Origin: Brevibacillus sp. JNUCC-41
GTDB lineage: Bacteria; Bacillota; Bacilli; Bacillales; DSM-1321
Direction: 5' to 3'
Assembly: GCF_014844095.1 (NCBI RefSeq)
Contig: NZ_CP062163.1
Span: forward strand, 2,885,501-2,949,500
DNA length: 64,000 nt
The translations under genes were made by a program, and so were the position numbers. Numbering within the stretch: position 1 is the stretch's first letter; every line of letters starts with the position of its first letter. The notes below the pieces were generated by a model. It was not told the origin of the DNA and did no database searches. It was given only the letters and a program-made list of their open reading frames with translations. Positions 25,418 to 34,281 of this stretch are shown here, piece by piece.

Positions 25418-25837
25418 TCAGTTCTGGAATAGCGAGGCGAACTTTTGAAGTCTGGGCAAGTCCGATTCTTGATACATCTGTTCTATCTTCAATGTCACCA
25501 ATAACTGGCTCTTGGCAAATAACATGTCCCGGAAATGATCGACCGCCCCACAAAAATGATGATAGTTGGTTTCACCAGTTCCGAAGACTCCCGATTTCAG
25601 ATGAGCAATAGGCAACTGTTCCAGTTCTTTATAAAAGGCTGCTGATTTAGCAGGAAGTTCCCCATTGCCCCATGTATAGGTGCCGACGATCAATGCATCG
25701 TAATCCGGCAATGTGCGTAAGTCGAATTCATTCATTCGATATAGTCCAGCTTCAGGTAAAAGGGAAGCGAGGGCTTCAGCAAGCGCTTTTGTATTGCCTC
25801 CGGCAGAATGATAGACAATGGCAACTTTACAGCTCAT
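25418..25837 (-). CDS. Flavodoxin of the ribonucleotide reductase operon
   Basis: This 139-residue protein has the flavodoxin fold, with the FMN phosphate loop SAGGNTKALAEAL and a YTWGNGELP flavin-side loop. It begins within the last codons of the beta-subunit gene (ATG AGC TGT overlapping GAT GAG CTG TAA). It is therefore the third gene of the reductase operon. By analogy with NrdI it may reduce or oxidatively assemble the metal cofactor of the beta subunit, but it looks like a general flavodoxin rather than a typical short NrdI. Confidence 0.82.
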   Translation of the reverse strand: MSCKVAIVYHSAGGNTKALAEALASLLPEAGLYRMNEFDLRTLPDYDALIVGTYTWGNGELPAKSAAFYKELEQLPIAHLKSGVFGTGETNYHHFCGAVDHFRDMLFAKSQLLVTLKIEQMYQESDLPRLQKFASLFQN

Positions 25838-26879
25838 CGAACCCATTGCTGGCATTTACTTGACTGTATGTCCTTGACTTCTGTTCGAAGAAATCGGTTT
25901 TGGTAAGTCCGATCGATTCATCATCGAACGTTTTGATCCATGGCATCGGATTGTCGCCATACTCTTTATACAAATTCTCAAGGCCTAGCATACGTAACCG
26001 TTTGTTGGCGATATATTCGATGTACTCATTGAATTCTTCCAAATCGAGATCGGCTTTGGTTTGGATATCTTCGAGCATATATTCAGACCATTCTTTTTCG
26101 AGTTCGACTGCTTTTTCAATCGTTGTATAGATGAACTTCGTGTTTTCTTCATTATTTAACTCAGGATATTCATACATCAAGATTTGAACGAGCATTCCAA
26201 TGAAATCGAAATGGACCATTTCATCGCGATGAATATAAGATATCATCGTAGCGGAACCAGTCATTAAATTTTGTCGTCCTAAATTATAATAAAAGGCGAA
26301 AGCCAGATAGAAATATATCCCTTCAAGGTTCGTTGAATGGATCAGTGCCTCGAATAAATGCTGAGGGCTGGGATCGTCCACGAACGTTTGATAAGCATCA
26401 ACGATCGGTTGGTTACGCTTAATCACTTCAGGATGTTCTTTAATGCGGTCGAATAGCTGTTTTTGTTTGCCTACAGGAATCAAGGAAGCAAGGATATAGG
26501 AATAAGACTCATTATGGATCGATTCCTGCTGGGCCATGTTGGCCAGAATAGCTTTTGCCGCCGGATCTTTGATGTACCGAAGGATTTCTACTAAAGTGGG
26601 CGTTTGAAGACTATCCATTCCAGCAATCATTGTAAGGATATCGAGAAAAGCGTCCTGGATATCTTCGTCCAATTCGCCCCACTGTTTTTTATCCTGAATC
26701 ATGTTCACGCTCGAAGGCTTCCAAAAGTTATTGATGAGCTGTGTATAGGTATCATAGAATTTTTCATACTGAATATCGTTCCAAAGGAGGAAGCCTGAAG
26801 CTTCTCCTTTGAAAACACCGGTTGCTTTGGTTGGATGCGTAGGTTCGAGCATCCGAATCTTTTTGATATGATTGGTCAT
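25827..26879 (-). CDS. nrdB: Class I ribonucleotide reductase beta subunit
   Basis: This 350-residue R2 protein carries the expected metal ligands: Asp in GMDSLQ, ExxH in QQESIHNESY (with the radical tyrosine three residues on), Glu in TNLEGIYFY and ExxH in HRDEMVHFDF. It supplies the tyrosyl radical for the alpha subunit. Whether it uses iron (Ia) or manganese (Ib, with the flavodoxin partner) cannot be told by eye. It is transcribed with nrdA from a riboswitch-controlled leader. Confidence 0.93.
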   Translation of the reverse strand: MTNHIKKIRMLEPTHPTKATGVFKGEASGFLLWNDIQYEKFYDTYTQLINNFWKPSSVNMIQDKKQWGELDEDIQDAFLDILTMIAGMDSLQTPTLVEILRYIKDPAAKAILANMAQQESIHNESYSYILASLIPVGKQKQLFDRIKEHPEVIKRNQPIVDAYQTFVDDPSPQHLFEALIHSTNLEGIYFYLAFAFYYNLGRQNLMTGSATMISYIHRDEMVHFDFIGMLVQILMYEYPELNNEENTKFIYTTIEKAVELEKEWSEYMLEDIQTKADLDLEEFNEYIEYIANKRLRMLGLENLYKEYGDNPMPWIKTFDDESIGLTKTDFFEQKSRTYSQVNASNGFDEL

Positions 26880-29222: not shown

Positions 29223-29250
29223 TAATAATCCTCCTTGTTGACTTCCTTCT

Positions 29251-29284
29251 AAAATAAAAAAACCGCCCAATGAATTGAGCGGAT
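29251..29284 (-). terminator. Riboswitch-controlled terminator upstream of nrdA
   Basis: Read leftward, CCGCTCAA-TTCA-TTGGGCGG is followed by TTTTTTTATTTT, a strong intrinsic terminator 30 bases before the nrdA start. It lies downstream of the cobalamin aptamer, so B12 binding probably favours it. Confidence 0.85.
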
Positions 29285-29285
29285 C

Positions 29286-29335
29286 AAACGATAGAATAAA
29301 AGAGCCATGAAAAAATAGCCGTTAAACTATCGTTT
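29286..29335 (-). repeat. Inverted repeat between aptamer and terminator
   Basis: AAACGATAG (29286-29294) and CTATCGTTT (29327-29335) are a perfect 9-base inverted repeat next to the terminator. They could form an antiterminator or a spacer hairpin in the expression platform. Confidence 0.5.
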
Positions 29336-29373
29336 CATCATCTCAATCCCCGAAGAATAAGAAACGTGAAAAA

Positions 29374-29530
29374 TTCAAGGCAGGTCTCCTGACTCATGAT
29401 CATCCTACTTTGAGTCCTTCCCGTATAGAGAGCTATACAGTGGGTTTCTCATTTCGTCACATTTACAGTTGCGGGGACAGTTCCGGGTTTACACCGGATT
29501 CCCTTTTCAGCCATCACTGGCACCTTGGAT
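29374..29530 (-). promoter_or_regulatory. Cobalamin (B12) riboswitch upstream of nrdAB-flavodoxin
   Basis: On the leftward strand the order is GGTGCC, GGGAATCCGGTGTAAACCCGG, CTGTCCCCGCAACTGTAA, CCCACTG, a variable hairpin, GGGAAGG and finally GAGTCAGGAGACCTGCC. These are the conserved blocks of the cobalamin riboswitch, including the B12 box. A terminator follows before nrdA. In families where this arrangement is known, B12 turns off the class I enzyme while a B12-dependent class II enzyme takes over. Confidence 0.95.
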
Positions 29531-29541
29531 TATAAAAAATT

Positions 29542-29583
29542 CTATATATAGTTATTGGTAATGTTTATGTAATCAATATCTAG
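29542..29583. promoter_or_regulatory. Pair of candidate NrdR boxes
   Basis: CTATATATAG (29542-29551) and CAATATCTAG (29574-29583) both fit the NrdR-box core CWATATNTWG and are 32 bases apart, close to the roughly three helical turns usual for NrdR site pairs. They sit upstream of the riboswitch, where the nrd promoter is expected. Confidence 0.5.
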
Positions 29584-29835
29584 TATTTCTGCTTATATTA
29601 TCGTAAGCCATATACGATGATAATTCAACTAATATATTTGAAAAAAACCAACCCTTATCTATTGACAAAGTGAGGGCAGAGTGCGAAGGAATGAAAGAAT
29701 TTATTGGGGAATGGGTAATTCAAGCACTGATTTTAGGCGATTTTGTGTTAAAATAAATTGTCTAGTGAAGGTGGCTCTCCCTTATTGCGATGAGGGGATT
29801 CGCGGAAAAATATTTAAGAAAAAGGGGATAAAATC

Positions 29836-32828: not shown

Positions 32829-33760
32829 ATGAAAATGGGGGTTACTCCTATGAATAAGAGCGAGAAAAGAACGAAACTGCTGGAAAAGGTTGAGAATCAT
32901 TTAAGACTGACTGCAAGGAATTTAGTGAAATTCGATACAATCCAAGAAACATTGGATTTTACGGTGGAATCATTTCAATTGGAATTTTCGTGGGACTTTG
33001 TGGCGATCGTATTGAGAGGGGATGATCGTTTGTATCCAAAAGTATGGAAAGGCGGTTCGCTGCATTTTGCTGATTCTTTTCCCATTCACCTAGGTGAATG
33101 TTCCCCGGAGATTCTCGAAGAAGAGGTAAAGGATAGTTACATAACTTAATTGTTTGAAGAGAAAATAGAAGATAAGCTAAATAGTCGAATATGCGACATT
33201 GATGAACAATGATTTATACAGGCCACACCGGATTGCCGTTTTGAAACTGGAAGAGGGTCACTTACTGCCCATTCGAACCTGATTGAAAGTGAAGCGGAAA
33301 AAGCCTCGGAATGGGATCATATGAAAGAACAGCTTTATCTTAAATATAAAGAAATCATCGTGACAAAAATGGGATGATATGCTGATATTGATGATACCGG
33401 TGAAAAGGGAAAATAAACTCGCATCCTCATACTGGGAAGGGATAAGTCTTTACCTTAGTGAATATCCGATATTAAAGAAGCTTTCCCTGACGATATTATG
33501 GGGGTGGTACCACCAATAACCTGAAGGATTATTATGCCTACAAATAGGCCATGCATGCTCATAATGTTCCCGAAATGGATTCCCGAAAAAAGTCTTGGCC
33601 ATTTGACGAATTGGGCTCCTGCACGCTATTGAATGACCTGAAAGACCCTGTACTTGCCGAGTTATTACTTAAGAAATATTTGCCCAGTTGATGGAAGACC
33701 AAACGGGAAGCGGAGTAGCGCTTATAAACTGATGATTTGAATCGAGCCAGCTATATTCCG
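32829..33760 (+). pseudogene. Decayed regulator gene (GAF-like, possible PucR/CdaR family)
   Basis: An N-terminal 106-residue piece (ENHLRLTARNLVKFDTIQETLDF, GAF-like) ends at a stop, and related coding sequence continues in broken frames. Around 33590-33690 the frame reads KSWPFDELGSCTLLNDLKDP then AELLLKKYLPS, which resembles the FDELG-LL segment before the PucR helix-turn-helix. A degraded LHIHFT follows. Stops and frame changes occur at least five times, so no functional protein is expected. Family assignment is tentative; the decay is clear. Confidence 0.5.
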
Positions 33761-33922
33761 CTGCACATTCACTTTACATAGCAATGATAAAAGATCTTGA
33801 AAGGGTCTTTTTTTATTCGATTTTGTGTGTAATCTGGGTAAGGAGGCATGAGGGCTATTGTTACCGAAAAAGGCCAGCTCTATCAAAGTTTTTGGAGTAA
33901 AAACCCGCCCGGTGTTAAAAGT

Positions 33923-34117
33923 CTATTCCTTATCAATGATACTGGATTTACATTTAGGACATGTCACTTCTTTATAATGCTTGAACCTGATTTTTCGAAG
34001 GTCGCTTCTGGTCAACATTGCGAATACATTATACCTTGTGCCGCATGCACAAGTATTTTTATCTTTAACTATGTGTCTCTCATCTGTAGTAGCAGAATAA
34101 ATGGTTGGAAAAAACAT
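33923..34117 (-). CDS. 64-residue zinc-ribbon-like protein under c-di-GMP riboswitch control
   Basis: A leftward 64-residue protein starts MFFPTIYSATTDERHIV and has two cysteine pairs, CAC near residue 22 and CPKC near residue 54, suggesting one zinc site. There is no signal peptide or long hydrophobic helix. AGGAGGG precedes the ATG. About 70-170 bases upstream lies a cyclic-di-GMP-I riboswitch whose 5' arm can pair with sequence just before this RBS. The gene is therefore likely switched by c-di-GMP. I do not recognise a function. Confidence 0.75.
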   Translation of the reverse strand: MFFPTIYSATTDERHIVKDKNTCACGTRYNVFAMLTRSDLRKIRFKHYKEVTCPKCKSSIIDKE

Positions 34118-34137
34118 ATATAACCCTCCTATTTTTA

Positions 34138-34281
34138 ATTTTAGGCAAATTAAAAAGGGGCAATTGATAATAAAGTGATCCATTCAAGAAAAATCTTGGC
34201 AGCCCGGCTGCCATGACAACCAAGTTGTTGTGTTAGGCCCGTGGCTTTGCGTCTTTTACTTTCATAAAATTTGCCTAAAAT
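34138..34281 (-). repeat. 14-base inverted repeat linking riboswitch and RBS region
   Basis: ATTTTAGGCAAATT (34138-34151) and AATTTGCCTAAAAT (34268-34281) are perfect complements. The distal arm overlaps the 5' end of the aptamer, including its GGCAAA, and the proximal arm lies about 10 bases upstream of the AGGAGGG. Pairing would exclude aptamer folding. Confidence 0.7.

Follow-up and report, generated by a model that had tools for sequence, protein, structure and literature searches.

In Streptomyces coelicolor, coenzyme B12 reportedly represses the class I ribonucleotide reductase operon nrdABS, and a class II enzyme is said to be present as well. The locus described here resembles that system in having a class I reductase operon headed by a B12 riboswitch, in a genome that also encodes a class II NrdJ, and differs from it in that S. 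coelicolor is an actinobacterium whose third operon gene is nrdS, whereas the third gene here encodes a flavodoxin. Among the bacilli, Irla et al. (2015; PMC4342826) placed a predicted adenosylcobalamin riboswitch in the nrdAB 5′-UTR of Bacillus methanolicus MGA3, together with riboswitches on metE and on a cobalamin transport and biosynthesis operon. That study listed the nrdAB riboswitch from transcriptome data and Rfam, makes no mention of nrdJ, and cites Streptomyces nrdABS as the experimental precedent; the original work (Borovok et al., 2006) is also cited in PMC5962746. Given the precedents in B. methanolicus and Streptomyces, the arrangement of a riboswitch before nrdA was already known. 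Our genome shares with B. methanolicus both the cobalamin riboswitch before nrdAB and the one on metE, and our account differs from the earlier one in identifying the class II partner, working out the switching helices and tracing the coupling across the order.

Many cobalamin riboswitches have been measured in Bacillus subtilis, where a predicted intrinsic terminator accompanied 37 of the 38 functional ones (Kennedy et al., 2022; PMC9600662). The same source describes a B12 riboswitch on metE of Priestia megaterium, in which MetH is the B12-dependent partner. There, as proposed here, B12 turns off the B12-independent isozyme, and the Peribacillus genome has a metE switch too; the difference is that metE serves methionine synthesis, not deoxynucleotide synthesis, and that in many genomes its switch stands in tandem with a SAM riboswitch. 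What is new here is the anatomy of the expression platform, the order-wide coupling to nrdJ, and the presence of the switch on the class Ib nrdI-nrdE operon in two genomes. Neither the coupling nor the class Ib switch was found in the literature searched, which included few subscription papers, and no literature was found that treats the riboswitch, nrdA and B. megaterium together. If the model proposed below is true, these bacteria choose between an oxygen-dependent and a B12-dependent route to DNA precursors by means of an RNA that senses the vitamin itself, and their relatives that have neither the class II enzyme nor the switch represent a natural experiment in the keeping and discarding of metabolite-sensing RNAs.

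The nrdAB-flavodoxin operon and its cobalamin aptamer

The window, that is, the whole stretch of 64,000 nucleotides that was analysed, corresponds to positions 2885501-2949500 of a complete genome of 5.49 Mb. The NrdA encoded in it is 95-99% identical to proteins of the Peribacillus simplex, frigoritolerans and muralis group, and the source is a soil relative of Bacillus belonging to Peribacillus. Both nrdA and nrdB matched class I ribonucleotide reductase families (Table 1), and together with the flavodoxin gene they follow the aptamer on the same strand, in agreement with the operon that the earlier note had read from the sequence. The flavodoxin scored under the curated NCBIfam cut-offs, and no match to NrdI was found for it. 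The start codon of nrdA is the ATG at 29222-29220, downstream of its Shine-Dalgarno sequence. Since the upstream neighbour, the manganese-dependent pyrophosphatase gene ppaC, lies on the opposite strand, the riboswitch heads the nrdAB-flavodoxin operon.

The covariance-model search that had been suggested for the putative cobalamin aptamer returned a match to RF00174 spanning model positions 1-189 of 189, with a score of 122.6 bits, the gathering score being 31.5 (cmscan). The element originally assigned to 29251-29530 is therefore real, but that interval leaves 12 nt at the aptamer's 5′ end uncovered, as well as the promoter side. The B12 box CAGGAGACCUGCC and the core were kept, small changes aside, across 14 aligned aptamers, and the ligand is most likely adenosylcobalamin. 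The predicted kissing contact between L5 (UCCCCG) and L13 (CGGGGA) is visible as complementarity only, at a conserved position and enriched over shuffles.

Table 1. Positions of the operon genes and regulatory elements in the window
Feature	Positions	Strand	Basis
Flavodoxin gene, overlapping the end of nrdB	25418..25855	-	Flavodoxin_1 75.7 bits
nrdB, class I reductase beta subunit, 350 aa	25827..26879	-	NF007184 350 bits; Ribonuc_red_sm 253 bits; nearest solved chain 2rcc_A
nrdA, class I ribonucleotide reductase alpha subunit, 765 aa	26925..29222	-	NF006665 1198 bits; Ribonuc_red_lgC 514 bits
Shine-Dalgarno sequence AAGGAGG of nrdA	29230..29236	-	Sequence
U-rich terminator tail UUUUUUUAUUUUAG	29249..29262	-	Sequence
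Intrinsic terminator hairpin CCGCUCAAUUCAUUGGGCGG	29263..29282	-	Stem CCGCTCAA-TTCA-TTGGGCGG, then T7
Putative antiterminator 3′ arm CUCAAUUC, common to the terminator 5′ arm	29272..29279	-	Fold and pair counts
9-base inverted repeat, 3′ half CUAUCGUUU	29286..29294	-	Fold and pair counts
9-base inverted repeat, 5′ half AAACGAUAG, scaffold hairpin	29327..29335	-	Fold and pair counts
Putative antiterminator 5′ arm GGAUUGAG	29342..29349	-	Fold and pair counts
L13 segment CGGGGA, candidate L5 partner, overlapping the antiterminator 5′ arm	29347..29352	-	Complementarity
Cobalamin riboswitch aptamer, RF00174, full length	29362..29542	-	Rfam cmscan 122.6 bits, E 2.8e-30
B12 box GAGUCAGGAGACCUGCC	29379..29395	-	Conserved in all aligned aptamers
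L5 loop segment UCCCCG, candidate L13 partner	29472..29477	-	Exact complement CGGGGA at 29347-29352
NrdR-box-like site 2 (TAACTATATATAGAAT), overlapping the 5′ edge of the aptamer match	29539..29554	-	Consensus match
NrdR-box-like site 1 (ATACTAGATATTGATT)	29571..29586	-	Consensus match

Expression platform and predicted switching

The terminator proposed between the aptamer and nrdA was found as a hairpin followed by a T7 tail. The 102 nt from the aptamer to the end of the terminator gave a folding z of -5.2 relative to shuffles, and their fold is a long hairpin with an 8-bp helix GGAUUGAG:CUCAAUUC at its base and the 9-base inverted repeat at its top. This repeat (AAACGATAG, 29327-29335, and CTATCGTTT, 29286-29294) was confirmed. 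The earlier note had suggested that it could be the antiterminator, a role that we rejected because constrained folding allows the repeat hairpin and the terminator to form side by side, which makes the former a scaffold. The helix that excludes the terminator is instead the adjacent 8-bp one: its 3′ arm shares bases with the terminator's 5′ half, and the two structures are therefore mutually exclusive. An intrinsic terminator together with a mutually exclusive antiterminator, both conserved, points to transcription attenuation.

When the L13 segment was held unpaired in constrained folding, the effect expected of a contact with L5, the minimum-energy fold was the terminator state. In static folds of slightly different stretches, the antiterminator state (about -33.6 kcal/mol) and the terminator state (about -34.6 kcal/mol) were almost equal in energy, and the direction of switching accordingly rests on co-transcriptional order and precedent. 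The register of the P13 stem was ambiguous, as pair counts did not decide between CGUUUC:GAAACG and CGUUUC:GAGAUG (90.8% and 85.7% paired).

Comparison of the leaders of relatives indicated that the predicted platform layout is conserved across the order. An intrinsic terminator was present between the B12 box and nrdA in 92 of the 101 leaders whose riboswitch lay at most 420 nt from nrdA, against 2.6% of dinucleotide shuffles. A complement to L5 of at least 5 nt occurred in 85% of 91 leaders (22% in shuffles), almost always 26-34 nt downstream of the B12 box, and the best partner of the terminator 5′ arm fell within 12 nt of L13 in 85/92 leaders, compared with 28.5% in shuffles. The position of this partner was far more telling than the mean duplex energy, a weak test of the antiterminator (-11.1 vs -9.2 kcal/mol). 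Among 20 aligned leaders, 96.3% of the cells of the antiterminator helix were paired, whereas slid controls reached at most 53%; three of its pairs had changed on both sides, for which the shuffle control was modest (57/500). The terminator plus P13 was 94.9% paired, and the terminator carried one GC-to-AU compensatory pair among the relatives, in four sequences.

Cobalamin riboswitches elsewhere can control translation, and nine of the 101 leaders were without a terminator under the criteria used, both of which would suit a riboswitch acting mainly on translation or mRNA stability, with a hairpin before nrdA that is not a working terminator. We consider this very unlikely, as in the window about 27 nt separate the terminator stem from the Shine-Dalgarno sequence downstream of it, all but those nine leaders retain a stem with a U-tract behind it, and an intrinsic terminator is predicted for nearly all the cobalamin riboswitches that work in B. 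subtilis (see above; PMC9600662).

Judged from these sequence features, a cobalamin riboswitch of the class-I type, whose ligand is most likely adenosylcobalamin, very probably terminates transcription ahead of the nrdAB-flavodoxin operon and so represses it. In the absence of B12, the segment GGAUUGAG following the aptamer would pair with CUCAAUUC, and the 9-bp repeat hairpin, lengthened in this way, would act as an antiterminator that breaks the terminator and allows nrdAB to be made. With B12 bound, L5 would pair with L13 and take away the 5′ arm of the antiterminator, the terminator would form, and nrdAB would presumably be switched off in vivo. The usual cobalamin riboswitch design is an off-switch, and it is by analogy with this design that we infer the kissing contact and the direction of the response to the ligand.

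The class II reductase and the distribution of the riboswitch across the order

A gene for a class II reductase had been predicted elsewhere in the genome, and one was found. The whole-genome search located the reductase barrel domain in two places only, the nrdA of the window and a gene at 5355191-5356930 (L008), which encodes a class II NrdJ (NF005991, 1715 bits, cut-off 854) of 856 aa with a cysteine-rich C-terminus. No NrdD was found in the genome, the same search giving positive matches in control genomes, and no riboswitch was found near nrdJ. Under B12 repression of nrdAB, this B12-dependent enzyme, encoded without a riboswitch of its own, would supply the deoxynucleotides. The genome contains five further cobalamin riboswitches, two of which precede cbiM and, next to it, a 2Fe-2S ferredoxin-like gene, possibly the first of a B12 biosynthesis operon; the others precede an adenosyltransferase-like gene, a substrate-binding protein gene whose best B12-related match was BtuF, under its cut-off, and the B12-independent methionine synthase gene metE. 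With cobalamin riboswitches on cbiM, its neighbour and metE, the nrdAB route would be a fallback for times when B12 or cobalt is short.

The two NrdR-box-like sites at the nrdA leader agree with the consensus at 13 and 12 of 16 positions (scored on the identical sites of the near-identical locus L053) and are spaced 32 bp, as in that locus. NrdR is encoded in the genome. Box pairs of this kind, 31-32 bp apart and directly upstream of the aptamer, scored at least 24 of 32 in 81 of 110 nrdA leaders, and such pairs also precede nrdJ in 20/20 Peribacillus loci. Through these paired boxes, if NrdR binds them, both genes would come under general dNTP control; NrdR would likely adjust both enzymes to total dNTP demand, and B12 would select between them.

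The association of the riboswitch with nrdJ was analysed in about 150 genomes that have an nrdA of the NF006665 kind, counting two interrupted copies of the genus (G001 and G007); they were drawn from the family and from an even, not exhaustive, sampling of the order. The results showed the riboswitch before nrdA in 132 of the 138 NrdJ-plus genomes and in none of the 10 NrdJ-minus genomes (Fisher p 7.9e-12, a value that ignores kinship). Within Peribacillus, the corresponding counts were 31/31 sampled NrdJ-plus members and 0/3 NrdJ-minus members; the latter three gave no Rfam match at nrdA even at E up to 1, while keeping cobalamin riboswitches elsewhere in their genomes. Absence from some relatives means that the riboswitch can be lost, and the copy in the window might by the same token be a decaying, unresponsive remnant of ancestral regulation. 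We regard this as extremely improbable: the aptamer is full-length and high-scoring, the L5-L13 complementarity, antiterminator and terminator are conserved across the genus, and every sampled genus member with both NrdJ and an NF006665-type nrdA has kept the riboswitch. Together with this distribution, the conserved platform supports B12 control as the predicted mode of nrdA regulation, as had been proposed.

The riboswitch and NrdJ are each widespread in the order, and their co-occurrence might reflect common ancestry or general use of B12 and not functional coupling. On a tree of 60 NrdA proteins, NrdJ changes seven times, and among seven independent pairs differing in NrdJ, the riboswitch typically went with NrdJ in six and against it in none. 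The sign test for these pairs, which takes phylogeny into account, gave a p of only 0.031, and it runs on the NrdA tree, which may differ from the species tree. Given the separate changes, their concordance, and the three NrdJ-minus Peribacillus that carry cobalamin riboswitches elsewhere and not on nrdA, an explanation by ancestry or general B12 use alone seems unlikely.

Functional coupling is the reading that we prefer, but it is not strict in the direction from NrdJ to the riboswitch, since six genomes with NrdJ and an NF006665-type nrdA (G074, G115, G134, G162, G173 and G188) have no riboswitch before it; on the same ground we rejected a strict rule by which the riboswitch would occur wherever NrdJ does and nowhere else. 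From the gene and riboswitch inventories, the switch appears to need NrdJ, whereas NrdJ does not always bring the switch. On balance we lean slightly towards a broader view, in which B12 control of class I reductases has been gained or kept across the order only while NrdJ is present, and has become attached to different class I operons (nrdAB-flavodoxin, thioesterase-nrdA and, in one genus, the class Ib nrdI-nrdE). The riboswitch and nrdJ would then form an evolutionary unit, the loss of the former tracking the loss of the latter.

Variant loci and further observations

Three of the six genomes with NrdJ and without the riboswitch belong to one family (f14) and two to another (f35). In two NrdJ-plus genomes of another genus, a cobalamin riboswitch precedes the class Ib operon, nrdI then nrdE, at L172:1204-1392 (G043; 120.4 bits) and L173:993-805 (G089; 113.8 bits). 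No cobalamin riboswitch was found within about 2 kb of the class Ib operons of four other NrdJ-plus and four NrdJ-minus genomes. In seven leaders from several genera (L075, L076, L120, L135, L149, L156 and L164), a gene for a 4HBT-type thioesterase of about 155 aa, apparently frame-broken in L149, lies between the riboswitch and nrdA, a position that would place it under the same presumed B12 control. Three nrdA leaders from Peribacillus with neither NrdJ nor the riboswitch (L060, L067 and L118) contain another conserved long hairpin, GTGAGTGAAT...GCAAA / TTTGCGAGAT...ATTCACTCAC, for which there was no Rfam match. A second nrdA in an NrdJ-minus genome (L049, on contig 8 of G009) has phage-like small genes upstream and no riboswitch, and is possibly borne on a prophage.

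The nrdJ gene is interrupted in G001, G002, G004, G007, G026, G027, G035, G042 and many genomes of the order. The interruptions recur near profile residues 266, 481 and 653, which suggests introns or inteins. A group I intron lies within nrdA of Peribacillus asahii (L024:5907-6161).

Elsewhere in the window, the stretch at 33150-33780 (+), downstream of a short ORF at 32829-33149, resembles a decayed gene with many stops. A c-di-GMP-I riboswitch (77.9 bits) was identified at 34285-34195 (-), preceding a short ORF at 33923-34183 that has CxxC pairs and was assigned to no family.
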